Source: an uncultured Pelagibacteraceae bacterium
GTDB taxonomy: Bacteria; Pseudomonadota; Alphaproteobacteria; Pelagibacterales; Pelagibacteraceae
Length of the DNA: 40,998 nucleotides
NCBI GenBank assembly: GCA_902580445.1
Contig: CACHKQ010000006.1
Location: 1-40,998 of the forward strand
Reading direction: 5' to 3'
Under the pieces are notes generated by a model, which had not been told where the DNA came from, ran no database searches, and saw only the letters and a program-made list of their open reading frames with translations. Position numbers and translations under genes: made by a program. Shown piece after piece: positions 10,587 through 28,051 of this stretch. Position 1 is the first letter of the stretch, and each line of letters opens with the position of its first letter.

Positions 10587-11188
10587 ATCTTATATAAATT
10601 CTTTTGTATTATTTTTTTTAGATTTTTTTTAACGTTTGATATATCTTTTTTTTCATTTTTTAAAGAAGTTATTTTTTCGTTTTCTAACCCACAAGGTAAA
10701 ATCCTTTTGTAATCATTTAAGTTGTTTTTAATATTTATAGAAAACCCATGATAAGCAATCCAACGTGAAACCCGGATGCCTATAGCAGCAACTTTTTTAT
10801 CTTTAATCCAAATACCTACATTTTTTTTATCATAATTAGATTTAACTTTATAAATACTGAGAAATTTTATTATTATATTTTCTATTTGTCTTACCAAGTT
10901 TCTAATATCCTTTTTTCTTTTATTTAGATTTAGAACAAAATAAACAATTTGTTGTCCTGGGTTATGTAGGGTGATTTTCCCCCCGCGATTTGTTTTTATC
11001 ACAGTAATTGATTTATCTAATATTTCTTCTTTTTTTGATCTTATACCCGCACTATAAGTTAACGGATGTTCTAAAAGCCACACTAATTCTTTGCCACCTC
11101 GCTTAACTAATTCGACTCTTTTTTCTAGAAACATAAGAGCTTTTTTGTAATTTACTGGATTTTTACTAATTTTAAATTCTATGTCCAT
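10583..11188 (-). CDS. lipB: Octanoyltransferase (lipoate-protein ligase B)
   Basis: LipB moves octanoyl from acyl carrier protein to lipoyl domains, the first step of lipoate synthesis. Visible motifs are the RGGKITLHNPGQ signature (residues 68-79, family RGGxxTxHxPGQ), the KKVAAIGIRVSRWIAYHGFSIN block carrying the catalytic lysine (about 131-132), and the catalytic cysteine in ILPCGLEN (Cys166). The 201-residue length is normal. It is the only - strand gene here, between convergent rluC and divergent mgtE, so it must have its own promoter in the 64-base gap upstream. Very Lys/Ile/Asn rich, like its neighbours. Confidence 0.92.
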   Translation of the reverse strand: MDIEFKISKNPVNYKKALMFLEKRVELVKRGGKELVWLLEHPLTYSAGIRSKKEEILDKSITVIKTNRGGKITLHNPGQQIVYFVLNLNKRKKDIRNLVRQIENIIIKFLSIYKVKSNYDKKNVGIWIKDKKVAAIGIRVSRWIAYHGFSINIKNNLNDYKRILPCGLENEKITSLKNEKKDISNVKKNLKKIIQKNLYKI

Positions 11189-11252
11189 TTTAAATTGAAT
11201 TTTATCACCAGATAAACTAAAAGTCTCAAAAATTAAAATATTTAGGTGTTAT
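11189..11252. promoter_or_regulatory. Divergent intergenic region lipB / mgtE
   Basis: These 64 AT-rich bases separate the starts of two divergent genes, so both promoters are expected here or just inside the flanking genes. On the - strand a TTGAGA and a GATAAA stand 17 bases apart upstream of lipB; on the + strand a TTGAAT and a TAAAAG are 17 bases apart upstream of mgtE. Both are weak matches. An AGGTG five bases before the mgtE ATG is a plausible ribosome binding site. No Mg2+-sensing leader RNA could fit. Confidence 0.35.
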
Positions 11253-12632
11253 ATGAGTTTAGTTAAATCAATAGGAAAACAAAAAGTAAACGTCGATTTC
11301 AATAAAGATTTTATCAATTTATTTAGTCAAAAGATTAAAAATAATGATGTTGCCTTTATTAATCAAACTCTAGAAGATTTACATGCTGCAGATGTTGCCG
11401 ATTTAATTGAGAATCTTGATACTAGTACTAGAAATAAATTAATTGAAATTGAAGCATTTGCGATTGAACCAGAAATTTTTATTGAGCTTAATGAGTCATT
11501 ACAATCTGAAGTTCTTTTACTTTTAACACCAGAATCAATAGCAAAAATTTTACGTAAATTAGAATCTGATAATGCATTACAAATTTTAGAAAAGATTGAA
11601 GAAACAAAAAAGAAAAAGGTACTAGAAAATTTATCACCTCAAGACAGATTTCTATTAGAAGAGGGTTTGAGCTATCCTGAAGATTCAGCAGCAAGAATAA
11701 TGCAGAGAGAATTTACCGCTGTTCCTAGTGATTGGAGCGTTGGTCAAACAATAGATTATTTAAGAGAAAACAAGGAATTACCTGAAGAATTTTTAGAAAT
11801 ATTTATAGTTGATAAAGATTTTAAACCTATTGGCACAGTTCCATCTTCTAGAGTTTTGAGAACGCCAAGAAATTCTAAGATGAATTCGATTATGAGAGAG
11901 ATACCAGTTTTAATATCCGTTAATATGGATAAAGAAGAAGTCGGTCTAACTTTTGAAAATTACAATCTAGTTTCAGCCGGTGTAGTTAATAAAAATAATA
12001 AATTAATCGGAATGATTACAGCAGATGATGTAGTTACTGTTGTACAAGAAGAGGCCGAGGAAGATGTGTTAAGACTAGCCGGTGTTGGAGATGAAGAAAT
12101 TACTGATAGTGTTTTAAAAAAAACCAAAAGAAGATTTAGCTGGTTATTGCTTAATTTGCTTACAGCTATTATTGCATCTATAGTTATAGGGTTTTTTCAA
12201 GAGGATATAGAAAAAGTTGTTGCTTTAGCAGTATTGATGCCGATTGTGGCGTCAATGGGAGGAAATGCCGGAATGCAAACATTAGCTGTAACAATAAGAG
12301 CAATCGCAAAACAAGAAATTTCATCTGGAAATTTTTATAAAATAGTTACTAAAGAATTTGTTATAGGAATATTAAATGGAATAATTTTTGCTATTATATC
12401 TGCTGCTGTTGTACAATTTTGGTTCAAAGAACTTGATCTTTCAATTTTGATAGCGGTAGCAATGATATTGAATATGATTGTTGCAGGATTATTTGGTATT
12501 TTAGTTCCAGTTTCATTAAAAAAATTTAATATTGATCCTGCATTAGCTTCCAGTGTATTTGTAACCACAATAACTGATGTAATAGGATTTTTATCTTTTC
12601 TTGGTATTGGATCTATCTTTTTTTTAAGTTAA
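11253..12632 (+). CDS. mgtE: Magnesium transporter MgtE
   Basis: MgtE is a gated inner-membrane Mg2+ channel. The 459-residue protein has the family's domains in order: the helical MgtE N domain (about 25-130; repeats such as LHAADVADLIENLD, EVLLLLTPESIAKILRKL), a pair of CBS domains (about 135-265; AARIMQREFTAVPSDWSV and VNKNNKLIGMITADDVV), a linker helix, and a C-terminal membrane domain with about five helices (from about 290). The pore signature region is visible as VALAVLMPIVASMGGNAGMQTLAV. Regulation is probably intrinsic: in the family, Mg2+ binding between the N and CBS domains closes the pore. Its stop shares TTAA with panC. Confidence 0.93.
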   Translation: MSLVKSIGKQKVNVDFNKDFINLFSQKIKNNDVAFINQTLEDLHAADVADLIENLDTSTRNKLIEIEAFAIEPEIFIELNESLQSEVLLLLTPESIAKILRKLESDNALQILEKIEETKKKKVLENLSPQDRFLLEEGLSYPEDSAARIMQREFTAVPSDWSVGQTIDYLRENKELPEEFLEIFIVDKDFKPIGTVPSSRVLRTPRNSKMNSIMREIPVLISVNMDKEEVGLTFENYNLVSAGVVNKNNKLIGMITADDVVTVVQEEAEEDVLRLAGVGDEEITDSVLKKTKRRFSWLLLNLLTAIIASIVIGFFQEDIEKVVALAVLMPIVASMGGNAGMQTLAVTIRAIAKQEISSGNFYKIVTKEFVIGILNGIIFAIISAAVVQFWFKELDLSILIAVAMILNMIVAGLFGILVPVSLKKFNIDPALASSVFVTTITDVIGFLSFLGIGSIFFLS

Positions 12633-13438
12633 AAATTATCAATTAATCTTACATTTCCAATATAAAATGCATAAAATAAATTAAATTTATTTTTTTTTGG
12701 TTTCTTTAAGGTTTTTAAATCGATAAGTTTTATGTAATCAACATTTTTTGCACCAATAGAAATAATTTTTTTTTTAATTTTAGAAAAGTTAAATATTTGT
12801 TTTTTTAAAATTAAATCTTTCTTATATTTTTTTAAAACTTTTATAATACTAATAAGTTTAGCTTTTTCATTATGATTTAACTTCTTTAATCTTGAGGAAT
12901 ATGCTATAAAATTTTTATCTCTAATAGTTTTACATGGAAAAACTTGAGTTTTAATTTTATTTTTCATTATATGTTTTTTGATCAAATAGAGTTGCTGAAA
13001 ATCTTTATTACCAAGGAAAATCCTTTTAGGATTTGTTATCTCTAAAAGTCTGTTAACAACGTCAATTACACCTTTAAAATGACCCTTTCTAAATTGCCCA
13101 CATAACTCTTTTGCAAATTTGTCTAAGTATATTTTATTCTTTGTTTTGAATTTATATATATCTGCATAAGACGGTTTATATAAATAATCGATTTTAAGTT
13201 TTTTTAATATCTTAATATCATTTTTTAAATTTTTAGGGTAACTATTTAAATCTTTTCTACTATTAAATTGTTTCGGATTTACAAAAATACTTACAAGGGT
13301 TTTTCCCGACCCTTTAACAGATTTTTTTATTATACTTTCATGACCTTTATGCAAAAAACCCATTGTTGGAACAAAACTGATATTGTTGATTTTTCCTATT
13401 TCTTCTCGCAATTTTTTTTTATTTGTAAATAATTTCAT
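12629..13438 (-). CDS. panC: Pantothenate synthetase
   Basis: PanC condenses pantoate and beta-alanine with ATP to give pantothenate, the precursor of CoA. The 269-residue protein shows the nucleotidyltransferase HIGH-type motif in PTMGFLHKGHESII (residues 24-37), SIFVNPKQFNSRKDLNSYPKN (pantoate/ATP site region), GHFKGVIDVVNRLL, and the FLGNKDFQQLYLIKKH helix. A weak KMSKS-like SSRLKKLN is also present. The C-terminal domain is Lys-rich and degenerate, typical of very AT-rich genomes. No panB is adjacent. Start chosen at the ATG that puts the HIGH motif at its usual distance from the N-terminus. Confidence 0.92.
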   Translation of the reverse strand: MKLFTNKKKLREEIGKINNISFVPTMGFLHKGHESIIKKSVKGSGKTLVSIFVNPKQFNSRKDLNSYPKNLKNDIKILKKLKIDYLYKPSYADIYKFKTKNKIYLDKFAKELCGQFRKGHFKGVIDVVNRLLEITNPKRIFLGNKDFQQLYLIKKHIMKNKIKTQVFPCKTIRDKNFIAYSSRLKKLNHNEKAKLISIIKVLKKYKKDLILKKQIFNFSKIKKKIISIGAKNVDYIKLIDLKTLKKPKKNKFNLFYAFYIGNVRLIDNF

Positions 13439-13473
13439 TTGTAAAATATTCGTTTAACTTGTAAAAGGTTTTT
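13439..13473. promoter_or_regulatory. Divergent intergenic region panC / galU
   Basis: Only 35 AT-rich bases lie between the divergent start codons, so the promoters of panC and galU must overlap here or extend into the opposite coding sequences. I see no convincing -35/-10 pair within the gap; AAAAGG just before the galU ATG may act as a weak ribosome binding site. Confidence 0.3.
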
Positions 13474-14292
13474 ATGGTTACACAAGCAATCATTCCTTTA
13501 GCAGGATTAGGTACAAGATTACTGCCACTGTCAAGCGTAATTCCAAAAGAATTGTTACCAATTAATGGCAAACCAAACTTAGAATATATTATGGAAGAAT
13601 GTATAGAGGCAGGTATCAAACAATTTATTTTCGTAGTACCAAAAAATAGACCAAGTATCAAAAAATATTTTTTTAATGATAGTTTTTATAAAAAAATATT
13701 AAAAAAGAAAAAAAATGATAAGCGTTTAAAAAATGTTTTTAAAAGATTAAAAAAACTTCAAAAAATGATAAAATTTGTATATCAAAACAAGCCTGAGGGA
13801 ACAGGTCATGCAGTTTTACAATGTAAAAAATATTTAAAAGGGACTCATTTCCTAATGCTTTTAGCAGATGATTTAATAGTAAAAAAAAATTGCTCTAAAG
13901 AGATGATTTCATTGCACAGAAAAACCAAAGGTTCTGTTATAGCTACTAGAAAGGTAGAAAGAAGGACAGTTTCAAGATGGGGTATACTTGGATTTAAAAA
14001 TAAAACAAAAAATTCTTTTTTAATAAACGAAGTTATTGAAAAGCCTAAACTAAGTGAAGCCCCATCAAATTATGCCATAATTGGAAGATATATCCTTCCT
14101 AGAAAAATACTTTCTGTTTTAAAGATGCAGGGTAGAGGCAAAGGTGGAGAGATTCATATTACAGACGCGATTAAGACTATGGTTAAAAAAGATGAAAAGT
14201 TTTATGGAAATATATTTAAAGGAAAATATATAGATTGTGGGACTTTGGATGGATTTATTAAATCAGGACTTACAATTTCAAAATACCTATAA
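13474..14292 (+). CDS. galU: UTP--glucose-1-phosphate uridylyltransferase
   Basis: GalU makes UDP-glucose from UTP and glucose 1-phosphate. The nucleotide-binding signature is at the start (AIIPLAGLGTRLLPLSSVIPKELLPI; G11-L-G-T-R and Lys25). PEGTGHAVLQCK, LLADDLI (metal and nucleotide site) and VIEKPKLSEAPSNYAIIGRYIL follow, with GGEIHITDAI and DCGTLDGFIKSGL near the end. The 272-residue length is slightly short for the usual 290 but no core motif is lost. It is nine bases upstream of ugd; together they convert glucose 1-phosphate to UDP-glucuronate for surface glycans. Confidence 0.93.
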   Translation: MVTQAIIPLAGLGTRLLPLSSVIPKELLPINGKPNLEYIMEECIEAGIKQFIFVVPKNRPSIKKYFFNDSFYKKILKKKKNDKRLKNVFKRLKKLQKMIKFVYQNKPEGTGHAVLQCKKYLKGTHFLMLLADDLIVKKNCSKEMISLHRKTKGSVIATRKVERRTVSRWGILGFKNKTKNSFLINEVIEKPKLSEAPSNYAIIGRYILPRKILSVLKMQGRGKGGEIHITDAIKTMVKKDEKFYGNIFKGKYIDCGTLDGFIKSGLTISKYL

Positions 14293-14301
14293 AAGATTAA
14301 T

Positions 14302-15609
14302 ATGAAAATGTGCATGATAGGAACTGGTTATGTTGGCTTGGTAAGCGGAACGTGTTTCGCTGATCTTGGAAACAAAGTTTACTGCGTAGATAAAGACCAA
14401 AACAAAATAAACAAATTAAAAAATGCTATTTCACCAATTTATGAACCCGGACTGGATGATTTAATAAGAAATAATTTTAAAGCAAAAAGATTGGACTTCA
14501 CAAGTGATCTAGAAAAAGCAGTCAAAGACTCCCAATTAATTTTTATTTGCGTTGGTACACCAACAAAAAAAGGATCAAATTTAGTCGATCTCTCACAAGT
14601 ATTTAATGTTGCAAAATCAATATCAAAATACATAAAAAGTTACAAAATTATTATTACCAAATCAACTGTACCAGTGACAACTGGTGATCAGATAGAAAAA
14701 ATTATAAGTCGAAAGGTAAAGAAGTCTTTATTTGATGTTGTATCTAATCCTGAATTTTTAAGGGAAGGTGAAGCCATTAGAGACTTTAAATATCCTGATA
14801 GAATTGTTATTGGGTCAAACAATAAAAAAATCTTTAAAAAAATGGAACTTTTATATGAACCTCTTATTAAAAAAGGAGCAAAGTTTTTTTGCACATCAAG
14901 AAAAGGAGCAGAATTAATCAAATATGCTTCAAATGCTTTTTTAGCAACTAAGATTACATTTATAAATGAAATTGCAAATTTATGTGAAACAGCAGGAATA
15001 AATATTGAAGATATTTCAGTTGGAATGGGATCGGATGAAAGAATTGGAAGCAGATTTTTGAGAGCAGGCCCAGCTTATGGTGGTTCTTGTTTTCCAAAGG
15101 ATACGAAAGGTTTAGTTTCAATTGCTAATAAATTTAAGTCAAATCTTTCAATTGTGAAATCTGTAATAAAATCTAATCAAAATAGAAAGATTTTATTAAC
15201 AAAAAGAGTATTAAAAATTATGAATAATAAAATTAAAAATAAAAAAATTGCTGTTTTAGGAGTAACTTTTAAAGCAAACACTGATGATATGAGGGAGTCG
15301 TCAAGCCTCGTTTTAATACCTTTTTTACTAAAAAAAGGTGCAAAAGTAAGTTATCATGATCCATCCGGTCCAAAAAATGAATTTGGTAAAAAGAAAAATC
15401 TAAATTTTGCTAGCTCAATAAATAAGGCCTGCCTAGGAGCAGATTTAATTATTATAAACACTGAGTGGGATGAATTTAAATCTATTGATTTTAAAAAAAT
15501 TGTCAAAAAAAATAATTTTAAAATTTACGATATGAGAAATTTATACAATCCTATTGAATTGGAAAAAAGAAATATTAAATATTATTCTGTTGGAAGATCA
15601 AAATTATAA
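14302..15609 (+). CDS. ugd: UDP-glucose 6-dehydrogenase
   Basis: This enzyme oxidises UDP-glucose to UDP-glucuronate in two NAD+-dependent steps. The Rossmann motif GTGYVGL is at residues 7-13, followed by FICVGTPTKKGSNLVDLSQV, KSTVPVTTGDQI, NPEFLREGEAIRDFKYPDRI, and the catalytic block GPAYGGSCFPKDTKGL with Cys263. The C-terminal NAD-linked domain has VLGVTFKANTDDMRESSSL. The 435 residues match the usual length. It forms a two-gene unit with galU. Its TAA stop is shared through TTATAA with the convergent RidA gene. Confidence 0.95.
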   Translation: MKMCMIGTGYVGLVSGTCFADLGNKVYCVDKDQNKINKLKNAISPIYEPGLDDLIRNNFKAKRLDFTSDLEKAVKDSQLIFICVGTPTKKGSNLVDLSQVFNVAKSISKYIKSYKIIITKSTVPVTTGDQIEKIISRKVKKSLFDVVSNPEFLREGEAIRDFKYPDRIVIGSNNKKIFKKMELLYEPLIKKGAKFFCTSRKGAELIKYASNAFLATKITFINEIANLCETAGINIEDISVGMGSDERIGSRFLRAGPAYGGSCFPKDTKGLVSIANKFKSNLSIVKSVIKSNQNRKILLTKRVLKIMNNKIKNKKIAVLGVTFKANTDDMRESSSLVLIPFLLKKGAKVSYHDPSGPKNEFGKKKNLNFASSINKACLGADLIIINTEWDEFKSIDFKKIVKKNNFKIYDMRNLYNPIELEKRNIKYYSVGRSKL

Positions 15610-16059
15610 TTCAAATATTCCATCAACCTCAACAGCAGCACCTAAAGGTAAAGAACTTACACTAATAGCAGCTCTCGTGTGTTTACCACTATCTCCAAAT
15701 ATTTTTGAAATTAAATCTGATGCACCATTTAAAACTTTTGGTTGGTCTATAAAAGAGTCTGTAGAATTAACGTATCCGGTAAGTTTAACGCATCCTTTAA
15801 CTTTATCTAAATTACCACACTTTTTTTTTAGTTGCGCTAAAATATTTAATGCACATAGTTTTGCTGCATCTTGACCCTGTTCTAAACTAAGCTCTTTTCC
15901 AACTTTTCCTTTAGTTAACTCACCTTTTAAATTGAAAGACACTTGACCTGATATATAAATTAAGTTTCCAACAATTTTTGAAGCTACATAGGAACCAACG
16001 GGATCTGGCGCTTTTGGCAAATTAATATTAAGTTTAGATAGATTTTTTTCAGCACTCAT
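15604..16059 (-). CDS. RidA/YjgF family protein (reactive imine deaminase-like)
   Basis: Members of this family trimerise and many hydrolyse reactive 2-aminoacrylate-type imines. The 151-residue product belongs to the longer subgroup (about 150 rather than 128 residues). It shows LIYISGQVSFNLKGELTKGKVG, the AKLCALNILAQLKKKCGNLDKVKGCVKL helix region, and the closing HTRAAISVSSLPLGAAVEVDG; the conserved Arg near the active site and the late Glu are present. The substrate cannot be assigned from sequence. It overlaps topA by four bases (ATGA), so it is the last gene of the - strand operon. Confidence 0.85.
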   Translation of the reverse strand: MSAEKNLSKLNINLPKAPDPVGSYVASKIVGNLIYISGQVSFNLKGELTKGKVGKELSLEQGQDAAKLCALNILAQLKKKCGNLDKVKGCVKLTGYVNSTDSFIDQPKVLNGASDLISKIFGDSGKHTRAAISVSSLPLGAAVEVDGIFEL

Positions 16060-18617
16060 TTTTTTTTCTTCTTTTTATTTTTATCGTACTCTTTTCTTTT
16101 TTCAATTAAAATTAAAGCTTCCTCCATACTAAGTTCAGTGGGGTCTTTGTCTTCAGGAATTGTAGCATTTAAAGATTTGTACTTTATATATGGACCGTAT
16201 TGACCTTTCATTATTCTTACAGGTTTTTTATCTTCTGGATGTTCACCAAGATTTTTTATTTCCGAGGATGACATTCTTCCCGGCTTAGCCTCCGAAATTA
16301 AAGTTATTGCCCTATTCAAACCAATTGAAAATAATTCGTCAACGCTTTCAATTCTTGCAGATTTATTTGAACATTTTAAATAAGGACCAAACCTTCCAAC
16401 ATTAACAGTTATATCGTCATTCAACTCAGGATGCCTACCGATTATTTTTGGTAAAGAACATAAATACTTGGCTTTATCTAAATCCACATTTTCAATTGAT
16501 AAACCCTTTGGTATTGAAACATTCTTTAAGTTTTCGTTTTCTTTTTTCTTTTTAGATTTTTTTATTTTATTTTCATTTAACTCAGAAGGCTCAATCTCAA
16601 ATTGTAAATAAGGTCCAAATCTTCCATTTTTGAGAAAGATATCTTTACCCAAATCATTTTTTCCAATTAATTTCGGTTCTGCCAAATGGATTTGTTGAGA
16701 TGCTTTTGACTTTGATAGTGGCCTTGTAAACTTACATTCTGGATAATTGGAACAACCTATAAATGCCCCACCTCTAAAACTATTTTTAAGACTTAGTTCA
16801 CCAGTATTGCAAAGCTTACACTTCCTATCAATAGTATCATTATCATCTCTTTCAAAAACCAGGTCACCCAAACTTTCATTAAGCAAATCAAGAACTTCCC
16901 TGGTTCTTTTTTCTTTAACTTGCCCGACGTTTGAATAAAAATCTTTCCAAAAATCATCTAAAACCTTAACCCAATCAATTTTGCCACTAGTAATTTCATC
17001 TAGTTGATTTTCTAAATCTGCAGTAAAATTATAATCCACATATTTACTAAATAATTTTTCAAGAAATGCAGATAATAATTTACCTCGGTCAGTTGGGTGG
17101 AATCTCTTATTTAATAACTCAACATAATTTCGTGTTGATAAAACTGATATTATGCTTGCGTATGTTGAAGGTCGTCCAATTCCTAATTCTTCCATTTTTT
17201 TAACCAAACTTGCCTCAGAATATCTTGGCGGAGGATCAGTAAAATGTTGATCATCTATTAATTCTTTTATTGAGACTTTATCACCAACTTTTACTTCAGG
17301 TAAAATATTTTTAAGATCTTCATCTTTTTCCTCAAATTTGTATACTTTTAAATATCCTTCAAATTTAATCGTTGAACCGTTTGCTTTAAAATGAATTTTT
17401 TTATCTTCTGACTCAATAGTTATACTTTTTCTATCAAATTCTGCTGGATTCATTTGAGACGATACAGCTCTATTCCAAATTAACTCATAAAGTTTAGATT
17501 GATCTGTACTTAAATATTTTTTCAAATCAGAAGGTTTTCTATTAACATCCGTAGGTCTTATCGCTTCATGTGCTTCCTGAGCATTCTTTGCTTTTTTTCC
17601 AGAGTAATTATTCGGAACTTCTGGAAGATATTCTTTACCATGTTCCTTATTTATAAAATTTCTAAAATCAGATATGGCCTCTTTTGAAATATTAGTTCCA
17701 TCTGTTCTCATATACGTAATTAAACCAATAGTATCTCCTTCTAAATCTATCCCTTGATAAAGTCTTTGAGCAATTTGCATAGTTCTAGAAGCTCCAAAAC
17801 CATATTTACCAGATGCTGTTTGTTGTAATGTTGATGTTGTAAATGGCGCAAGTGGATTTCTTCGAAAAACTTTAGAGGAAACATCAGTTATTTTGTATGA
17901 TTGATCTTTTATTGCATTTAAAGCTTTTTCTGAGTCTATTTTTTTCTTAAAAGAAAATTTTTCTATTTTTTTTTCGTTAAATACAGATAGCTTAGATTTA
18001 ATAAGTTTATCATCATACTGAAAGTTACTAGCAATAGTCCAAAACTCCTCTGGTTTAAAAAGTTCAATTTCATGCTCCCTTTCAGTTATCAATCTAAGAG
18101 CAACTGACTGAACTCGTCCTGCAGATTTCGATCCTGGAAGTTTTGTCCATAAAATTGGCGATATATTAAAACCAACAAGATAATCTAATGCTCTTCTAGC
18201 CATATAAGCATCAACTAAAAGAGACTCTATTTCCCGTGGATTATTAATTCCATTTGTAACTGCTTTTTTTGTAATTTCATTAAAAACAACCCGTTCAACT
18301 TTTTTACCTTTCAAAAGTTTTTTGCTTTCAAGTATTTCACGAACATGCCAGGCAATAGCCTCTCCCTCTCTATCAGGGTCAGTTGCTAATATTATTTTAT
18401 CAGACTCAGCTGCTGCATCAGTGATTTCTTTTACATATTTTTTTGAGAATGTATCGAGTTCCCACTCCATTTTAAAATTATTTTCAGGATCAACAGAACC
18501 ATTTTTAGAAGGGAGATCTCTGACATGACCATAACTTGCCAAAACTTTATAATCCTTACCCAAATATTTATTAATAGTTTTTGCTTTTGCAGGACTTTCA
18601 ACCACAACTAAATACAT
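16056..18617 (-). CDS. topA: DNA topoisomerase I (type IA)
   Basis: TopA relaxes negative supercoils through a 5'-phosphotyrosine link. The N-terminal TOPRIM domain has VVVESPAKAKTINKYLG (Glu8) and ATDPDREGEAIAWH (Asp80, Asp82, Glu84). The catalytic Tyr302 is in GLITYMRTDGTNIS. VGFNISPILWTKLPGSKSAGRVQSVALRL is the conserved cleavage-domain helix. The C-terminal part holds one four-cysteine zinc finger (CKLCNTGELSLK to GCSNYPECKF) and then repeats ending in GRFGPYLQ / GRFGPYLK / GQYGPYIK, the Toprim-associated C-terminal repeats of alphaproteobacterial enzymes. At 853 residues it is full length. AAGGA upstream supports the ATG at 18617. The upstream neighbour is a glycosyltransferase rather than the usual dprA. 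Confidence 0.96.
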   Translation of the reverse strand: MYLVVVESPAKAKTINKYLGKDYKVLASYGHVRDLPSKNGSVDPENNFKMEWELDTFSKKYVKEITDAAAESDKIILATDPDREGEAIAWHVREILESKKLLKGKKVERVVFNEITKKAVTNGINNPREIESLLVDAYMARRALDYLVGFNISPILWTKLPGSKSAGRVQSVALRLITEREHEIELFKPEEFWTIASNFQYDDKLIKSKLSVFNEKKIEKFSFKKKIDSEKALNAIKDQSYKITDVSSKVFRRNPLAPFTTSTLQQTASGKYGFGASRTMQIAQRLYQGIDLEGDTIGLITYMRTDGTNISKEAISDFRNFINKEHGKEYLPEVPNNYSGKKAKNAQEAHEAIRPTDVNRKPSDLKKYLSTDQSKLYELIWNRAVSSQMNPAEFDRKSITIESEDKKIHFKANGSTIKFEGYLKVYKFEEKDEDLKNILPEVKVGDKVSIKELIDDQHFTDPPPRYSEASLVKKMEELGIGRPSTYASIISVLSTRNYVELLNKRFHPTDRGKLLSAFLEKLFSKYVDYNFTADLENQLDEITSGKIDWVKVLDDFWKDFYSNVGQVKEKRTREVLDLLNESLGDLVFERDDNDTIDRKCKLCNTGELSLKNSFRGGAFIGCSNYPECKFTRPLSKSKASQQIHLAEPKLIGKNDLGKDIFLKNGRFGPYLQFEIEPSELNENKIKKSKKKKENENLKNVSIPKGLSIENVDLDKAKYLCSLPKIIGRHPELNDDITVNVGRFGPYLKCSNKSARIESVDELFSIGLNRAITLISEAKPGRMSSSEIKNLGEHPEDKKPVRIMKGQYGPYIKYKSLNATIPEDKDPTELSMEEALILIEKRKEYDKNKKKKKK

Positions 18618-18642
18618 AAATTAATCCTTAAAAAAACTTAAA

Positions 18643-19878
18643 TTATTTACATAGTTTTTGATAAATACTTAAAATTTTACTAAATTCTTCATTATCATAT
18701 AAAACTTTTGTTTTTTTAACATTTTCCATGTATCTTTCAATTACTTTTGGATTTTTAACAATATTTTCAAGGGTTTTAATTAAATTTTCGCGATGGGGCT
18801 TGCTAATAATTATACCATTAGAATCATTCTTAACTATTTCTGATCCAAAAAATTTTGTAGTTATTGGTATAACTTTTGCATCAATATATTCATATAACAC
18901 TTTGCAGTAAGTTTCAAAATACGAGGTAGTTAACCCAAAATCAGCCCAACTAAGTATGTTATGAAGATTTGAAGGATTAAAACTATCAAAAAATTCTACT
19001 GATTTAAATTTGTTTAAACAAGACTTTGAGGTCTTTTTTTTAAAACCATAAATTCTTAAGTTTATCTTATCATTATTTTTTTTTAATACTTCATAAAAAG
19101 ATTTCTCAATTATATCCCAACCTTTTCTATAACTACCACCGCCAATGAAAATAAAATTTAATTTTTTCCCGTTACTCCTTTTTTTATTTAAAGATAATTG
19201 ATTTTTTTCAACACCAAAACCAAGAACATCAAAATTAGTTTTTAAATCAAAATGTGATAAATAAAATCTAGCAAAAGAATATGTTGGGAATATTAGATGG
19301 TCAAAAAACCTATTATTTATATGTATTACACTTTTTTTTCTCACCTCTAGTTTTTTGTAATAATTTTTAGAATCGTATTTAAGATTAAACCAAAAAAACT
19401 TAGCAATTTTTCCACTTATTTTTCTTTCATTGTGGTAATGATTATTAATAAGACTATCCTCATGATTAAATGTCAATGAGCTATCGAATAAACAAATGTC
19501 TTCTAAATTTAGTACATGTTTTAAAATTGGAACTTTAAAATTTTTTAAAAAATTGAGAAAATCTGGTCTCATACCTACCCAATCCAATATATGAATAATA
19601 TCTGGTTTAAAATTTATTTTATATTTTTCAATTTCTTCAGTTTTTATAGAATAATTAAAAGCATTTTGATACCAATTGTCTAGACTTGGCCAATTATAAA
19701 ATAAAATATTATCTTTTTTAAATTCATTTAAATTATTGTCAATACGACCTGAGTAAGGACTTATTATTGCTATGTTGTGATTAGCTTTGATAGCATTATC
19801 AGCGTATTGTTTTGCAATTAAAGGAACACCAGAAACTTCATTCAAATGAGTTTGGTGCACAATGTAGATTATGTTCAT
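18643..19878 (-). CDS. GT4-like (GT-B fold) glycosyltransferase, accessory
   Basis: This 411-residue protein looks like a retaining GT-B glycosyltransferase of the group 1/GT4 type. The N-terminal half has IVHQTHLNEVSGVPLIAKQYADNAI (donor/acceptor loop near residues 6-30), then IIHILDW near 95-100. The C-terminal half has FIFIGGGSYRKGWDIIEKSF (243-261), LRIYGF, and SWADFGLTTSYFETYCKVLYE (310-330), where the Glu of the E-x7-E-like motif is about residue 322. No signal peptide or membrane span is evident, so it is probably cytosolic or peripheral. It overlaps the methyltransferase by four bases (ATGA) and precedes topA by 25 bases. Sampled lines are lower in G+C (about 20-22%) than topA (about 35%). 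Sugar and acceptor are unknown. Confidence 0.72.
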   Translation of the reverse strand: MNIIYIVHQTHLNEVSGVPLIAKQYADNAIKANHNIAIISPYSGRIDNNLNEFKKDNILFYNWPSLDNWYQNAFNYSIKTEEIEKYKINFKPDIIHILDWVGMRPDFLNFLKNFKVPILKHVLNLEDICLFDSSLTFNHEDSLINNHYHNERKISGKIAKFFWFNLKYDSKNYYKKLEVRKKSVIHINNRFFDHLIFPTYSFARFYLSHFDLKTNFDVLGFGVEKNQLSLNKKRSNGKKLNFIFIGGGSYRKGWDIIEKSFYEVLKKNNDKINLRIYGFKKKTSKSCLNKFKSVEFFDSFNPSNLHNILSWADFGLTTSYFETYCKVLYEYIDAKVIPITTKFFGSEIVKNDSNGIIISKPHRENLIKTLENIVKNPKVIERYMENVKKTKVLYDNEEFSKILSIYQKLCK

Positions 19879-20711
19879 TTATGTTTCGGTGTTAAATAAA
19901 TCCAATGCATTGTTTGAGGCCTTCCTTCGTTCATCATTAGCCACTTATCTATTTCACTAAAATTTTTTAATAAATTTATTTGAAAAGGGTTTTTTGAAGA
20001 ATATTCAATTATTTCAATATTAAAAAATTTTTTAATATTTTGCTGGAAAAGATTTATTAAATTTTTGTTAGGTTGGATAAAATCGTGATTTTCAATTAAT
20101 AAATATGAATGCATCAATCTTTTTAAAATAGTATCATTTAAAAGCTCAAACTCCTGTCCCTCAATATCAATTAAGAATAAAGTTTTTTTTAAATCATTAT
20201 CAGATATATTTTTAAAAATAATATCAAAATTAGCTTCAAAGAAAGTTTTAATCTTTCCATCTAAATTATTTTTGTTTATATTTTCTTCTAAATAATTTTT
20301 AGTTATTTTATCAATTTCAAAGGCATACCCATTCTCAAAATAACCCTTTTTGATTAAACCCAGAATGTGATACCCATCAGCAGCTCCAAAATTAACAATA
20401 TTGACTAAATTATTTTTTTTTTGTTCTTGGATAATTTTATCTTGAACTTGACTTTCATAAATACCTAATAGTTTTGAGCAATTATCTCGACTTTTCCAAT
20501 TTGTTTTACAACTCAGATACGTATCTTTATAATGACCATTTAAAATTAAATTATTTGAAATTTTCATTATTTCATTCTCAAGTTTATCGAGTTTTTCTCC
20601 CAAAAAATAATCATGTTTTTCAATTAATCTTAATTTTCTTAAAAATTTGCTTATTATTCCTTGCCAACCATAAACAGCATGAATTTCTTTTAATTTTTTT
20701 ATTTTTTTCAT
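19875..20711 (-). CDS. Probable FkbM-like SAM-dependent methyltransferase, accessory
   Basis: I recognise the fold, not the substrate. The 278-residue protein has a basic N-terminus (about 1-50, possible coiled coil or membrane-surface helix). A SAM-binding motif I-like [13 protein letters not shown] follows (residues 105-118), then [17 protein letters not shown] with an acidic residue after strand 2 (Glu132), and [14 protein letters not shown] (179-191), which resembles the D-x-E-G-x-E motif of FkbM-family methyltransferases. Relatives often O-methylate sugars in glycan clusters, which fits the adjoining glycosyltransferase. It overlaps both neighbours by four bases, so all are probably co-translated with plsY. 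It occupies the place where dprA usually starts. Confidence 0.6.
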
Positions 20712-21292
20712 TTAAAAATCTTTGGTTCTTTCTTATTTATCAACTGACGTAAATTATTTTTATGGGTGTAAATAATTAAGATTAAAGACATAGTGAAGAA
20801 TAATATAATATTTTTTTCTATAAAAAAATAATCGTAAATTAAAACAGATAGAACAGAGCACATAGAGGATAAAGATGAATATTTAAAAATAACTATTAAA
20901 ATTAACCAACTTAAAACAAAAATTATAAAATAGTCAAAAGATAAGACAAATATTATTCCAAGAAATGTAGCAACTCCTTTCCCGCCTTTAAACTTTAGCC
21001 AAATCGAATATATATGGCCCACTAAACAAAAAAAAGCTGAATAAAGATATAAATCTTGAAAAGTTTCAGTAGTGATAAAAACAGCCGCATATCCCTTAAG
21101 TGAATCAAGGAATAAAGTCAATGCTGCTAGATATTTCTTTCCCGTTCTTAATACATTGGTTGCACCAATATTTCCAGATCCAGTTTTTCTTATATCTTTT
21201 TTAAGAAATATTTTTGTTAATACTAAACCAAAAGGTATAGAACCTAAAAGATATGAGTATAAAGCTACAATTATAAAATTTACTTCCATCAA
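20708..21292 (-). CDS. plsY: Acyl-phosphate:glycerol-3-phosphate acyltransferase PlsY
   Basis: PlsY acylates glycerol 3-phosphate with acyl-phosphate, the first step of membrane phospholipid synthesis in bacteria using the PlsX/PlsY system. The 194-residue integral membrane protein has several hydrophobic segments. Its three conserved cytosolic motifs are [30 protein letters not shown] with the following LDSLKGY, and [14 protein letters not shown]. The gene overlaps the dihydroorotase homologue upstream and the methyltransferase downstream by four bases each. Gene order pyrC-plsY is common in Alphaproteobacteria. Confidence 0.94.
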
Positions 21293-22578
21293 TTCGAGTA
21301 AACAAGTTCACCGTTCAAAAAAGTCATTAAAACTTTTCCTTGAAGTTTTCTATTTTCAATTGCAGTATTTTTTGATTTAGATTTTAAATCCACAGCTTTT
21401 ACTATCCAAGGTTTTTCTAAATCTAATATACATATATCTGCGTCTGCATCTTTTTTTAAAGTACCTTTATTTATCTTAAGTATTTTTGCTGGATTGATTG
21501 TTAGGCATTTAATAATTTTATCTAATGGTAACGAATTGTTATGATATAGCTCTAAAGCAAGAGGTAACAACGTTTCTATTCCTATTGATCCTGATGCAGC
21601 TTGTGCAAATGGGAGCCTTTTACTTTCTTCATCTTCTGGCACATGATCAGATACAATAACATCTATTAAATCATTCTTTATACCCTCTATCAAAGATAAT
21701 CTGTCTTGCTCCTCTCTCAGTGGAGAAGAGAGTTTCAAAAAAGTTCTAAATTCGCCTATATCATTTTGATTTAGCGATAAATTATTAATTGATACACCCG
21801 TAGTAAACTTAACTCCATTTGACTTATTTTTTTTAATTACACTTAGAGATTTTTTTGAGGAAATTTGATTAATGTGGTATCTACAAGGATATTCACTTAA
21901 CAATGAAAGATCTCTTTCTATAATGATTTTTTCAGCTATGTAAGAAATACCTTTTAATCCTAATCTTGTTGCAACTTCACCTTCATTTATACAAGAATTT
22001 TTTGACATCTCTTGATCTTCAGCATGCTGCATAATTAATACATCTAAATCTGAGGCATAGTTCATCACCCTAGACATCAATTCTGTATTTTGAATAGTTT
22101 TATTAACGTCACTAAAACCGATTATACCTCTCGCCTTTAATAAACCGAATTCTGTCATTTGTTTGCCCTCGATATTTCTTGTAATAGAGGCACAAGGAAA
22201 TAAATTTACTTTTGCTTTATCTCTTCCTCTTCTAATTATAAAGTCAACCATCGAGACATTGTCAATAATAGGTTTGGTATTTGGCATAGTTACTATTGAG
22301 GTTACACCTCCAGCCAGAGCAGCTTGAGTAAGAGTTCTAAAGTTTTCTTTATATTCAAATCCTGGTTCTCCTACAAAAGCTTTCATATCAACAACACCAG
22401 GTATTGCTACTTTTCCTTTTAAATCAATTTTTTCTGAAAACTTAGAAGCATCAGAAATTTTTGTTTTTTTTCCTATTGATTTTATTTTTCCTTTTTCATT
22501 AATAATTATATTGCCTATCTCATCAATTTTTTGAGATGGATCTAAAATTCTAAGGTTTGTTAAAATTTTTTCTTTCAT
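21289..22578 (-). CDS. pyrC: Dihydroorotase homologue (PyrC/PyrX type) lacking the HxH metal motif
   Basis: The 429 residues are an amidohydrolase-fold protein of the type I dihydroorotase group. It has an N-terminal beta-sandwich part, [11 protein letters not shown] (55-65), [51 protein letters not shown] and a C-terminal [22 protein letters not shown] segment. Canonical enzymes have D-M-H-x-H-L-R-E-P-G; here residues 64-73 read [10 protein letters not shown], so both metal-binding histidines and the substrate Arg are replaced. Similar non-canonical copies are known next to pyrB, such as Pseudomonas PyrX, which supports ATCase assembly without catalysis. It could be that or an alphaproteobacterial variant enzyme. 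No gap separates it from pyrB. Confidence 0.85.
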
Positions 22579-23523
22579 TTATTTACAATATAGTTTCAAA
22601 CATGCCATTCTGACAGCTACACCTAGTTCTACTTGTTCTTTTACTAAACTTACATTAATGTCATCAGCGAGTTTGGTATCAATTTCAACACCTCTATTCA
22701 TTGGTCCAGGATGCATAATAAGAGCATCTTTTTTTGCATATTTAAGTTTTTCTGGACTTAACCCAAAAAACTCATAGTACTCCCTCTTAGATGGTAAAAA
22801 AGATCCTTGCATTCTCTCATTTTGTAATCTCAACATCATTACGATATCACAACCATCTAACCCCTTTTTCATATCTGTAAATGCTTTTGCTCCTAATTTT
22901 TCTATTGAAACTGGCATCAAAGTTTTTGGTGAAATCACATTTACTTCTGCTCCTAACATGTTCATTAAGTAAATATTAGATCTAGCTACTCTTGAATGTA
23001 GGATATCACCACATATTGCAATTTTAAGTCCCTCAATTTTTCCTTTTCTATTAATTATAGTCAATGCATCCAAAAGAGCCTGAGTAGGATGTTCCCTTAA
23101 TCCATCACCAGCATTTATTACAGAACAATTTACTTTTTGAGATAAAAGATTTGGTGCACCAGAATCTTGATGCCTTACAACAATAATATCAGGATGCATT
23201 GCGTTGAGTGTCATAGCTGTATCTAATATAGTCTCACCTTTTTTTAATGAAGAATTTCCAACATTCATAGTCATTACATCAGCACCTAATCTTTTACCGG
23301 CTAGTTCAAATGAACTTTGAGTTCTCGTAGATGGTTCAAAAAACAAATTTATTTGGGTTTTCCCTCTAAGCAAATCAAGTTTTTTAGATGTACTTCTATT
23401 GAGCCTTATGAAATTTTTTGCTTCACTTAGGATAAGGTTTGCTTCTTTAATAGATAGGTTTTGGATACCTAACAGGTGTTTTGGGATTTTTTTAACAGCT
23501 GAAAAATTTTTTATTATAGCCAT
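22579..23523 (-). CDS. pyrB: Aspartate carbamoyltransferase catalytic subunit
   Basis: PyrB makes carbamoyl aspartate, the committed step of pyrimidine synthesis. The carbamoyl-phosphate signature [20 protein letters not shown] (STRT at 65-68) is intact, followed by [35 protein letters not shown], a LRLQNERM-type aspartate-loop segment ([14 protein letters not shown]), and [12 protein letters not shown]. The 314-residue length is standard. No pyrI regulatory gene is present, consistent with the class that associates with a dihydroorotase homologue. Probably transcribed from the promoter candidate at 23534-23562 with a very short leader. Confidence 0.96.
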
Positions 23524-23567: not shown

Positions 23568-24023
23568 TTATCTCTTAATATAATCAATTGCACCCTGTAA
23601 TATAAAGGAGGCTGCGTTTTGGTCCAATTTTTCAACTTTTTTGGATGTATTAATGTCTAAACTACTTGATAAATTGAATGCTGCTTGGCTTGATAATCTT
23701 TCATCCCACATAACGATAGGTATCGAAATATTATTTGATAAATTTTTTGCAAAGTCTTTTGCTGATTGGGAAGATGAACCCTTTGAACCATCCATGTTTA
23801 TTGGATTACCAACAACTATTCCTTTGATGTTATTTTCTTTTATTATTTCTAAAATCTCATTAATCAAATCGATATTATTTTTTTTTTCGATTGTTTTTAA
23901 TGGCGTTGAAACCAGTTTGTTCTCATCTGATATAGCAATTCCAACCCTTTTTTTACCCGGGTCGATACCCAATAATCTAGATTTCTTTCCTATAGATTTC
24001 TTAAAATCTTCTATATCTTCCAT
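23568..24023 (-). CDS. ruvX: YqgF/RuvX-family pre-16S rRNA nuclease (putative Holliday junction resolvase)
   Basis: This RNase H-fold protein processes the 5' end of 16S rRNA in E. coli (YqgF); it was earlier thought to be a resolvase. The 151 residues carry LLGIDPGKKRVGIAISD near residues 17-33 (the catalytic Asp is Asp21), IVVGNPINMDGSKGSSSQSA, MWDERLSSQAA, and the late DQNAASFILQ helix with a second acidic residue. Length is normal. Divergent from gatC by 53 bases, an arrangement common in Alphaproteobacteria. Confidence 0.92.
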   Translation of the reverse strand: MEDIEDFKKSIGKKSRLLGIDPGKKRVGIAISDENKLVSTPLKTIEKKNNIDLINEILEIIKENNIKGIVVGNPINMDGSKGSSSQSAKDFAKNLSNNISIPIVMWDERLSSQAAFNLSSSLDINTSKKVEKLDQNAASFILQGAIDYIKR

Positions 24024-24029
24024 GAATAT

Positions 24030-24057
24030 GTTATATTTTACATCACTTTCAAAACAA
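24030..24057 (-). promoter_or_regulatory. Candidate promoter of ruvX in the ruvX / gatC divergent gap
   Basis: On the - strand TTGTTT (24057-24052), 16 bases of spacer, then TATAAC (24035-24030) form a moderate sigma70-like match. The -10 box ends six bases before the ruvX ATG, so the transcript would have almost no leader. The same 53-base gap (24024-24076) must also hold the gatC promoter, for which I see no clear hexamer pair. Confidence 0.35.
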
Positions 24058-24076
24058 ACTAAAACATAGTTTATAA

Positions 24077-24364
24077 ATGTCTATTGATAAAAGCCAAGTT
24101 AAAAAAGTTGCTAAACTCTCAAGAATTTCATTAGATGATAAAAATTTAGATTCTTTATCAAATGATCTTGCATTAATATTGAAGTTTGTTGAGCAGTTGA
24201 ATAAATTAGATACTAATAATGTAAAACCGTTAAACTCAATAGTTGATAAATCACTTGAACCACGAAAAGATCAAGTCAATGATGGTAAGATAAAAGAAGA
24301 AATACTAAAAAATTCACCTGATAAAAATGAAGATTTTTTTATTGTACCAAAAGTTGTTGAATAA
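24077..24364 (+). CDS. gatC: Asp-tRNA(Asn)/Glu-tRNA(Gln) amidotransferase subunit C
   Basis: GatC is the small belt subunit that ties GatA to GatB. The 95-residue protein shows VKKVAKLSRISLDD at the start, LILKFVEQLNKLDTNNVKPL in the middle and the ending ILKNSPDKNEDFFIVPKVVE, matching the family (AP..e...f.VP.V). First gene of gatCAB, two bases before gatA. GatCAB amidates misacylated Glu-tRNA(Gln) and/or Asp-tRNA(Asn). That normally means glnS or asnS is missing, but this cannot be judged here. Confidence 0.94.
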   Translation: MSIDKSQVKKVAKLSRISLDDKNLDSLSNDLALILKFVEQLNKLDTNNVKPLNSIVDKSLEPRKDQVNDGKIKEEILKNSPDKNEDFFIVPKVVE

Positions 24365-24366
24365 AT

Positions 24367-25827
24367 ATGTCAGATCTAAACAAAAGCACTCTTACCCAAA
24401 TTACAAATTTAATTAAAACAAAAAAAATATCTTCCTTGGAGGTAACTAAATTCTTTATTAAAAATATAGAAAAGGCAAAAAAATTAAATACCTTTATTAC
24501 AACTTGTTTCGAAAAAAGTCTTAAAGATGCTAAAAACTTTGATATTAAGAAAAATTATAATGGGTTACTTCCTGGTATTCCACTTGCAGTTAAAGATTTA
24601 TTCTGTACAAAAAATATTAAAACAACTGCAGGAAGTAAAATTCTCGAAAATTTTATACCAGCATATGAGTCTAGCGTAACAAATAATTTGTGGTTAGAGG
24701 GTGCTATAATTTTAGGAAAACTAAATTGTGATGAATTTGCAATGGGATCCTCAAATGAAACTAGCTATTTTGGTAATGTAATAAATCCAATTGGAAAAAA
24801 TTTAGTTCCTGGTGGATCATCCGGTGGTTCTGCAGGTGCTTTAGCGGCAAATTTAACACCAGCTACAATTGGTACTGATACAGGTGGTTCAATAAGACAA
24901 CCAGCATCTTTTACAGGTACAGTAGGTTTAAAACCTACATACGGATTATGTTCGCGATGGGGAATAGTCGCTTTTGCTTCATCTTTAGATCAGGCAGGCC
25001 CTATGACTAAAAATGTTGAGGATTGTGCTCTGTTACTTGAGGCTATGTCCGGGTATGACCCAAAGGACTCAACATCTATTAATAAAAAAAAAGAACAATA
25101 TTCAAAAAATTTAAACGAAAATATAAAAGGTTTAAAAATTGGAATCCCCAAAGAATATAGGATTGATAATATGCCAAAAGAAATTGATAACATTTGGAAT
25201 AAAGGAATAGATATTTTAAAAAAATCAGGAGCTACTATAGTTAATATATCTCTCCCACACACTAACTATGCATTACCAACTTATTATATAGTTGCGCCCG
25301 CAGAAGCATCTTCAAATTTAGCGAGATATGACGGAGTAAAGTATGGATACAGATCTAAAAAAGGTAAAAACCTTACAGAAATGTATGAAAATACTCGAGG
25401 CGAAGGATTTGGTAGAGAGGTAAAACGAAGAGTTCTAATTGGAACATATGTTTTATCCTCTGGTTATTACGATGCTTACTATTTAAAGGCACAAAAAGTA
25501 AGAAAATTAATTAAAAATGATTTCGATGAGAGTTTCAAAAAAATTGATGCAATCTTAACTCCTTCTACACCAAGCTCAGCATTTAAATTCGGGGAAAAAA
25601 CTAATGATCCAATCTCAATGTATTTAAATGATATATTTACAGTACCAGTTAATTTAGCAGGTATACCTGCAATTTCTATTCCTGGTGGAGTAGATAACAA
25701 AGGTTACCCAATGGGTTTACAATTAATCGCAAAAGCTTTGGATGAGCAAAAAATTTTAAATATCGCTTTAACAATGGAAAAAGCTATTAATTTTAAAAAT
25801 TCTATAAATAGATGGTGGGAAAATTAA
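24367..25827 (+). CDS. gatA: Asp-tRNA(Asn)/Glu-tRNA(Gln) amidotransferase subunit A
   Basis: GatA is the glutaminase subunit of the amidase-signature family. The catalytic Ser-cisSer-Lys triad is readable: Lys76 in PLAVKDLFC, Ser151 in [10 protein letters not shown], and Ser175 in [12 protein letters not shown]; the spacing (75 and 24) is the family's. The 486-residue length is normal. It sends ammonia through a tunnel to GatB. Its TAA overlaps the proposed gatB ATG by one base (TAATG at 25825-25829), which suggests balanced translation of the subunits. Confidence 0.96.
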
Positions 25828-27296
25828 TGCAAAAAGACAAATTTAATTATTTTATAAAAACTGAAAAAAATAATTGGGAAGTAATTATCGGTTTAGAAGT
25901 ACATGCACAGGTAGTTTCGGAATCTAAACTATTTTCTGGTTCTTCAACCAAATTTGGTGGAAAACCAAACACACAAGTAAGTTTAGTAGACTCAGCCTTT
26001 CCAGGAATGCTTCCTGTAATAAATGAATATTGTATAGAACAAGCAGTCAAAACTGGTTTAGGATTAAATGCAAAAATCAATTTAGATTCTATATTTGATA
26101 GAAAAAATTATTTCTATGCAGATCTACCTGCTGGTTATCAAATTTCCCAATATAAAAATCCTATTGTGGGAGAAGGGGAGATAAATCTTGATATGCCATA
26201 CGGCAGTAAAAAAATTGGCATAGAAAGATTGCACTTAGAACAAGATGCTGGCAAAAGTATTCATGACTTAAGTCCTGATAATACTTATGTTGATTTAAAT
26301 AGATCAGGTGTAGCTTTAATGGAGATTGTGAGTAAGCCAGATCTTAGATCACCCGAAGAAGTAAATTCATATGTTAAAAAGCTCAGATCAATAATGCGAT
26401 ATTTGAATACATGTGATGGCAACATGCAAGAGGGATCTTTAAGAGCAGATGTTAATGTTTCTGTTCGAAAAAAAGGGGAAACTAAGTTTGGAACCAGATG
26501 TGAAATTAAAAACGTAAATTCAATAAAATTTATGGAAATGGCAATTGACTCTGAAGCAAAAAGACAAGTTGAATTATTAGAGTCAGGTAAATCAATTGAC
26601 CAAGAAACTAGGCTTTTTGATACCAAAAAAAAAGAAACCAGATCAATGAGATCAAAAGAAGAAGCTCATGATTATAGGTATTTTCCGGATCCTGATTTAC
26701 TTCCTTTAAAAATTAACAAATCTTTTGTAGAAAATTTAAAAAAGAAATTACCAGAGTTACCTGATCAAAAAAGAGATAGATACATAAAAAAATTTAATCT
26801 TTCACCTTATGAGGCTAATGTTCTTGTCTCTGAGATTGATGTTTCAAAATTTTTTGAAGAAGTAATTAAAACTGCAGATATTAAACTTGCAAAAAATTGG
26901 ATTATTGTTGAACTTTTTGCTGTTTTAAATGAAAAAAATATTGAAATAAAAGATTCACCCGTCACACCAAAGAATTTAGCCATTTTGATTAATCAAATTT
27001 CTTCTGGAAATATTTCAGGTAAGATAGCAAAAGAGGTTTTTGACATTATGATTAAAACCGGATCTTCGGCTGACAAAATTATTGAGAATAAAGGTCTTAA
27101 ACAACAAAGTAATCCTGAAGAAATTAAAAAAATTATCAAAAAAGTCTTAGACAAAAACTCTGAAAAAGTCTTAGAGTACAAGTCAGGAAAAGTTAAATTG
27201 TTTGGTTTCTTTATAGGTGAAGTAATGAAAATTTCAGCGGGAAAGGCCAATCCAAAATTAGTAAATGAAATCCTTAAAACAGAATTAAAAAAATGA
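25827..27296 (+). CDS. gatB: Asp-tRNA(Asn)/Glu-tRNA(Gln) amidotransferase subunit B
   Basis: GatB is the kinase/transamidase subunit that activates the misacylated t[16 protein letters not shown] near the start is the family signature, followed by [75 protein letters not shown] and [15 protein letters not shown], then the helical and YqeY-like tail. I choose the ATG at 25827 (489 residues). An in-frame ATG at 25812 would add five residues and a 16-base overlap, but the 25827 site gives the TAATG junction seen throughout this window. It overlaps coaX as ATGA. Confidence 0.94.
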
Positions 27297-28051
27297 ACTA
27301 TTTAGTTGGAGATATAGGCAACACCAATATTAAAATTTGTAAAATAGATAAAAAATTTAGAATAAAAAACACTTATTTATTTAACTCAAAAAGCTCAAAT
27401 TTAAAAAAAGAATTGTCTTCAAAAATTAAAAATATAAGTAAAAAAAATTTTAATAAAAATGTTCTATTTTCAAGTGTAGTTCCTCAGGTTTATAATAAAA
27501 TCAAGTTCGTTTTTAAAAAGAAAAAAATGAGAGTTTACGAAATCAAAAACTTTAATTTAAAAAAATTGATAAAATTCAATATTAAAAAATATTCTCAACT
27601 TGGTTCTGATCGAATTGCTAATTCTGTTGGTGCATACTCTAAGTTTAAAACGAACTGTATAATAATAGATTTTGGTACAGCTACAACTTTTGATATTATT
27701 AAATTCAAGGGTGTTTATGATGGTGGCGTAATAGCCCCTGGTATTAAACTTTCTATCGAAAATTTATATTCCTCAACAGCACTATTACCTCCATTTAAAT
27801 TTAAAAAATATCCAAAAAGTTATGGCAAAAATACAATGGAAGCACTGTCATCAGGTTTTTATTGGGGTTATGAAGGCTTAATAAACAATATTTTAAAAAA
27901 AATAAATAATAAAAATGGTAAAATTCCTAATTTAATATTAACTGGTGGTTACGCTAATTATTTTAAAAATCGATTAATTAGAAAAGTTAAAATTGAAAAA
28001 AATATAACAATTTTGGGGATTATAGAAATATATAAAAAATTTTTAATATGA
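27293..28051 (+). CDS. coaX: Type III pantothenate kinase
   Basis: CoaX phosphorylates pantothenate, the first step of CoA synthesis, and uses an ASKHA fold. Motifs seen are [12 protein letters not shown] at residues 4-15 (phosphate 1 loop), [13 protein letters not shown] (family G-x-D-R), [15 protein letters not shown] (phosphate 2), [15 protein letters not shown] and the [11 protein letters not shown] adenosine loop. The 252-residue length is normal. It overlaps gatB and rnj by four bases each. Together with panC elsewhere in the window it indicates the cell makes CoA from pantoate; type III kinases are not feedback-inhibited by CoA. Confidence 0.93.

Follow-up and report, generated by a model that had tools for sequence, protein, structure and literature searches.

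Wilhelm et al. 2007 (PMC2217521) compared two SAR11 strains and reported 62 gene indels in their core regions; in the part of that paper drawn on here such indels are thought to be polymorphisms kept in populations. The portion of Lopez-Perez et al. 2014 (PMC4033161) used here describes O-chain clusters that are exchanged by recombination in their flanks, 'Ca. Pelagibacter' included. As given in the excerpted text of Zhao et al. 2025 (PMC12374537), recombination in SAR11 is promiscuous, which is linked there to the lack of mutS/mutL and recBCD in deep-ocean clades. No paper on the slot between plsY and topA was found in the literature searched. Here we describe a SAR11-type genome in which this slot carries a predicted methyltransferase gene (MT) and a predicted glycosyltransferase gene (GT). 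With a probability of about 0.8, we explain them as a cassette from a lineage of another SAR11 genus, coded g6, which was imported together with pyrC and plsY by homologous recombination, with loss of the box in front of topA.

Gene content of the plsY-topA interval

The window, that is the whole stretch of 40,998 nt that was analysed, belongs to contig C6 of genome G000, an assembly of 847,299 bases in 35 contigs which is 82% complete and has a stated contamination of 0.05. The features of the locus are as follows.

16056..18617, minus strand: topA, native apart from about its first 18 nt
18618..18642, minus strand: GT-topA junction, 25 nt, without the TTGAC box found before topA in relatives with an empty slot
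18643..19878, minus strand: GT (cargo gene 2), 411 aa, GT4 / GT-B glycosyltransferase with E322-x7-E330
19875..20711, minus strand: MT (cargo gene 1), 278 aa, predicted class I SAM-dependent methyltransferase, FkbM-like by its DIEGxE motif only
20708..21292, minus strand: plsY, glycerol-3-phosphate acyltransferase, donor-type
21289..22578, minus strand: pyrC, dihydroorotase, donor-type
22579..23523, minus strand: pyrB, aspartate carbamoyltransferase; the putative import has its left border here
18600..23224, minus strand: putative imported tract (3' part of pyrB, pyrC, plsY, MT, GT and the first topA codons), the best segment of the triplet test, with a soft left border

MT and GT were found to be two intact minus-strand ORFs between plsY and topA, so that the methyltransferase/glycosyltransferase pair of the preliminary description is borne out; Pfam matches support the identity of PlsY, TopA and the pyrC product. 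Each of the two genes had also been said to overlap its neighbours by four bases. Overlaps of 4 nt do join plsY to MT and MT to GT, and MT is thus translationally coupled to plsY and GT, but between GT and topA there is a gap of 25 nt.

The description of GT as GT4-like was confirmed by a score of 58.1 bits against PF00534 (cut-off 26.4), by the GT-B fold and by the residues E322-x7-E330. E-x7-E is a motif of retaining GT-B enzymes; its first E is replaced by D in one of four aligned homologues. The GT model, with a mean pLDDT of 67.9, was matched by Foldseek to the GT-B enzymes MshA, BshA, PimA and WaaG with probability 1.00. GT resembles these GT4 enzymes in fold and in the E-x7-E motif, but is only 11-15% identical to them among the matches listed, and against the sequences of solved structures it gave 0 matches at E 0.01. 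Identities by codon position between the GT genes of the window and of genome G288, a member of g6, were 0.70, 0.80 and 0.52, a pattern that fits constraint on the protein. Relatives of GT were detected in 4 of 397 family genomes at 1e-20, and plsY and topA were not found in the 20-kb surroundings of two of these relatives. Two genomes of genus g3, G442 and G192 (L182, L183), carry a GT relative together with a small GT2-like gene, apparently at one shared site flanked by dapA-like and oxidase-like genes (named by eye).

In profile searches MT reached no Pfam or NCBIfam cut-off, with 11.1 bits against PF05050 (cut-off 22.7) and 15.7 against TIGR01444 (cut-off 37.7). The acidic D-x-E-G-x-E motif is a feature of FkbM methyltransferases; the corresponding D182-IEGxE (DIEGxE) of MT is invariant in all ten aligned homologues, which also have an N-x-G-x-x-x-G stretch in common. 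Its predicted model (pLDDT 87.4) has a class I methyltransferase fold as judged by Foldseek and by VIA-align (Z up to 15.1, 198 residues, 3.4 A), and the best structural matches were to RNA, protein and small-molecule methyltransferases alike. By this model, MT is a class I methyltransferase. Its earlier naming as FkbM-like therefore holds for the DIEGxE motif and the class I fold, which it shares with the FkbM family (PF05050 / TIGR01444), but not for the profile scores, which stay under every cut-off of that family. Judged by the families of both products, the most likely role of MT and GT is to modify a glycan, of the surface or another kind, by transfer of a sugar and by methylation.

Relatives of MT were present in 19 of the 397 family genomes at E 0.001, own genome included, and within the 20 kb surrounding each of the nine best, neither plsY nor topA was detected. 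The MT homologues at L173, L176, L179 and L180 often stand alone or with one more gene among housekeeping genes (named by eye), and the one at L174 does sit inside a glycan cluster. In G209 (L181 9374-10998) an MT homologue is located in the rho-mnmE interval, with a 4-nt overlap with mnmE. The content of this interval differs among genomes of the window's genus (L251-L270, L181; genes named by eye), mnmE being within reach in 9 of 21 loci at gaps of 486 to 3632 bp. When rho-mnmE was considered as a second docking site in the own genus, no simple empty state was found, the content being too varied.

The G + C content had been put at 20-22% for the pair, 35% for topA and 28% for pyrC, figures that require correction: it is 22.5% in MT, 23.8% in GT, 30.8% in topA and 29.8% in pyrC, with 25.3% in plsY. 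The native genes panC (20.7%) and coaX (22.3%) of the same window are as low as the pair. At the third codon position the G + C fraction is 0.165 in MT and 0.158 in GT, close to that of topA (0.175), pyrC (0.177) and plsY (0.180) and within the range of 0.126-0.252 across 31 measured genes; the low G + C of the pair comes from the first and second positions, and low G + C is shared by panC and coaX. Low G + C was therefore rejected as a mark of foreign origin, for which composition gives no evidence.

The slot in relatives

The order plsY-dprA-topA had been described as common in Alphaproteobacteria, and this is correct. PF02481, the profile for dprA, was matched in 77 of 96 genomes of the class, and among 30 dprA loci of the class topA stands beside dprA in 26, plsY in 22 and both in 21 (plsY and topA within 1.5 kb). 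The own genome, at 82% completeness, has no PF02481 match, in agreement with the reported absence of dprA. Within the order, however, the profile was matched in only 1 of 197 genomes (1 of the 149 with a completeness of 90% or more). This single dprA, in G026 (L001 1396-2343), lies beside a phosphoribosyltransferase-like gene, with a 4-nt overlap, and an aminotransferase-like gene (both named by eye); the surrounding 20 kb yielded neither plsY nor topA, and it is probably a separate acquisition.

The slot itself was found to be empty in nearly all relatives. In the window's own genus, plsY and topA are separated by 64-85 nt in 22 of 26 topA loci, the other loci being without plsY. In a second set of relatives, which overlaps the first, the gap is 39-85 nt in 78 of 80 loci and the remainder again lack plsY. 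In genus g6 it is 73-95 nt in 99 of the 100 genomes with both genes paired among the matches listed. The near relatives G206, G211 and G207 have the same flanking order without MT and GT.

Since plsY adjoins topA in the relatives and the order is almost without dprA, the loss of dprA is older than the insert and independent of it. The preliminary description had proposed a landing site for surface-glycan genes with loss of dprA. The slot does carry additional glycan-type genes, but the pair did not replace dprA, and the link to its loss fails on the point which that description had itself named against it, namely that dprA is missing from the interval in relatives. A replacement of dprA by the pair in the window's lineage would agree with the position of the pair, which is that of dprA in many other Alphaproteobacteria; with 196 of the 197 searched genomes of the order lacking dprA, the relatives' slot empty and the only dprA of the order sitting with other genes, we regard it as extremely unlikely. 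A tempting story for this slot is thereby removed as wrong.

The genes dprA and comEC are two hallmark genes of natural transformation. The SAR11 order is almost without dprA (1/197) and without comEC matches (PF03772, 0 of 97 genomes of the order), though recombination is frequent. This stands in contrast to the competence genes in SAR11 cited in the part of PMC7542561 available here.

A short box was found in the empty slots by comparison of the intervals, not by a consensus scan. TTGAC is present in all 88 distinct empty plsY-topA intervals, against a mean of 6.4 and a maximum of 13 in shuffled sequences, and extends to TTGACA in 68 of the 88, at 36-48 nt before the topA start; the shuffles used here and for G288 below move pairs of bases and are approximate. 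Among nine representatives less than 75% alike, TTGAC occurs in 9/9, while it is found in the stretch just upstream in 1/9 and in the first 80 nt of topA in 0/9. No enrichment was seen for the box followed by a -10 hexamer at 15-19 nt (1/88 against 1.0 expected), but TTGACA combined with the less strict TA...T at a spacing of 14-20 nt occurs in 41/88 against 0.7 expected. Scans with promoter consensus sequences were uninformative (37 sites against 36.5 expected in the window region, 24 against 20.0 in the sister region). A -35-like box is evident, therefore, but with no clear consensus -10 a full promoter is not, and the box is a likely topA promoter. It is lacking in the slot of both genomes with cargo, where the nearest same-strand TTGAC upstream of topA lies at 687 nt in the window, inside GT, and at 1141 nt in G288. 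Because both cargo genomes are without the box, we infer that the first insertion probably deprived topA of its own promoter and that its transcription probably now depends on read-through from plsY.

G288 is the one genome among the 100 paired g6 genomes of the matches listed that has GT between plsY and topA (56-59% identity). The 60 nt that separate the plsY stop from the GT start form a small ORF, of which the last 32 nt are identical to the end of MT at 28 positions and have the same ATGA overlap with GT. The score of this scar, 44, was reached by 0 of 2000 shuffles and by 3 of 3980 60-base windows of the 20-kb G288 locus, all three on the scar itself; other empty-slot intervals scored 27-38 against the cargo DNA, all below the scar, with G034 highest at 38. 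At the C-terminus of MT a W and a P are invariant in homologues, and the G288 remnant keeps the W, not the P. We read the stretch as a probable deletion remnant of MT, which would make plsY-MT-GT-topA the older state there. The suggestion that the slot could hold different cargo in other strains is accordingly true only in part: the slot of G288 has GT alone, but this seems to have arisen from the same cassette by deletion, and an empty slot is by far the commonest state among the genomes measured.

Mosaic ancestry of the pyrB-topA segment

Nucleotide identity between the window and its sisters G206 and G211, calculated per 500 bp, is 94-98% over 11001-18500 and 92-94% over 24001-27500 against 69-74% over 21001-22500, with MT and GT unmatched. 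At the protein level, TopA is 98% and PyrB 91% identical to the sisters, PyrC 72% and PlsY 51%. The corresponding values against G288 are 87% for PyrC and 62-63% for PlsY.

A triplet test of window, sister and G288 was applied to the alignable part, with the cargo left out. The best segment was 23224-18600 with G206 and 23173-18600 with G211. Sister-like sites made up 211/585 inside the segment against 322/361 outside in the G206 test (log-likelihood gain 142), and 198/570 against 328/366 in the G211 test (gain 151). None of 200 permutations reached these gains, the highest being 13.4 (G206) and 11.7 (G211), where permuting sites ignores rate differences between genes. With L055 or L052 in place of G288 the gains fell to 99.7 and 75.7, consistent with a closer relation of G288 to the donor. 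The right border falls in the first topA codons, where the window departs from G206 and G211 at 7 of the 18 initial nucleotides and only sparsely thereafter. The left border is soft, from 23173 to 23224, and the second half of pyrB has 41 sister-like against 44 donor-like sites.

Phylogenetic trees gave a similar picture. In the PyrC tree the window falls inside a clade of 11 g6 rows (SH-aLRT 99), and in the PlsY tree it pairs with G288 (97), while in the TopA tree it stays with G206, G211 and G212 (98). For PlsY the AU test rejects placement in the window's genus (p 0.0047). For PyrC that placement has a log-likelihood 30 lower and is not rejected with protein (p 0.125), with p 0.041 for DNA. 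The partner of the window in the PyrC tree is G302 (83), not G288, and the g6 relatives in that group (G302, G331, G339 and G380) have empty slots, so the histories of the cassette and of pyrC need not be identical. No donor closer than about 80% in nucleotide identity is known. By this mosaic, the block of pyrC, plsY, MT and GT is shown to derive from a putative donor in g6, near the lineage of G288. The own genome has one plsY match and one topA match, so the import would have replaced the resident copies rather than added to them.

An origin of the pair in the slot by common descent, with loss in nearly all relatives, has in its favour that cargo occupies the slot in two genomes of two genera and that G288 shows that parts can be lost. 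It would require, however, not only loss but regain of the same TTGAC box in 128 measured empty loci, and it leaves the departure of pyrC and plsY from the sisters unexplained; a cassette in many genera following the species tree was not seen among the 397 family genomes. We consider it very unlikely.

The block could also be a chimera of assembly or amplification, or contamination from a second SAR11 cell, and so not part of the chromosome of the window organism. The mosaic was seen in one genome, from an assembly alone, and that assembly is in 35 contigs and 82% complete. Against such an artefact, both borders lie inside homologous genes, the operon is intact with its 4-nt overlaps, plsY and topA are each matched once in a genome of low stated contamination (0.05), and GT occurs independently in the same slot in G288; it appears quite improbable.

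A phage or other mobile element might likewise have placed the pair, and GT resembles phage glycosyltransferases (PHROG 2170, E 2.8e-11). A tblastn search with GT in 50,697 phage records, however, gave no match, pattern scans of viral_contigs with GT and MT, which reach close relatives only, gave no relative, and the borders of the import are those of recombination in homologous genes. For the import into the window's lineage this route is thus improbable, and homologous recombination is preferred; a phage or mobile element could still account for the original insertion in the donor line.

A topA of the type of the window's genus was observed in 5 of 120 g6 genomes with a topA match (G305, G292, G276, G327 and G344), with identities of 91-92%, where the other matches listed do not exceed 84%. 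This suggests that exchange at this locus has taken place in the opposite direction too.

Proposed history and comparison with known systems

In the history that we favour, an MT-GT cassette would have settled between plsY and topA in a g6 lineage, replacing the short intergenic stretch. The G288 line would then have lost most of MT and kept GT with the remnant. DNA from a relative of that g6 lineage would have replaced the matching piece in the ancestor of the window genome by two crossovers, putatively in conserved pyrB and topA sequence, and as homologous recombination would have acted in these two genes, pyrC, plsY, MT and GT would have come as one block. The imported block may be co-transcribed, topA would be transcribed by read-through from the pyr-plsY operon, and GT and MT may make or decorate a glycan. 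One locus would thus illustrate the entry of glycan genes into the SAR11 core genome, inside essential genes swapped between genera, with a trace of partial loss kept by the relative G288. If the reading of the box as a promoter is true, topA, whose product sets DNA supercoiling, was rewired by the gain of two accessory genes.

A wider generalization is possible, though we hold it to be doubtful: short SAR11 core-gene junctions with a promoter may be docking sites for glycan cassettes of one or two genes, where the cassette ousts the promoter, becomes coupled to the gene upstream through an overlap of stop and start codons, puts the essential downstream gene under the upstream operon and travels between genera with the flanking housekeeping genes. 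Were it true, variation at the surface would be spread across the core genome, beyond the known hypervariable regions, and glycan variation would be tied to regulatory rewiring of essential genes, in a group seemingly without dprA and comEC.

In comparison with described systems, the locus resembles replacement flexible genomic islands, as presented in the portion of PMC4033161 used here, in that surface-glycan genes spread via recombination in conserved flanks. Those islands, however, are tens of kb in size and present in all strains with different content, whereas the insert in the window measures 2 kb and nearly all relatives have nothing in the corresponding slot. It is also like the cases in the excerpted text of PMC12374537 in that exchange occurred between divergent genomes, and the promiscuous recombination and missing mutS/mutL and recBCD described there fit a cross-genus exchange; the exchange in the window is between genera, about 70% identical in nucleotides in pyrC. 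To the core-region indels, as set out in the part of PMC2217521 drawn on here, the likeness is that one or a few genes are missing in a near relative within a conserved order, and here the flanking genes, a likely donor genus, the borders, a relative's putative deletion remnant and a lost promoter-like box can be named in addition. The locus therefore belongs with the known SAR11 core-region gene indels moved by promiscuous recombination, of which it is a well-resolved further case.
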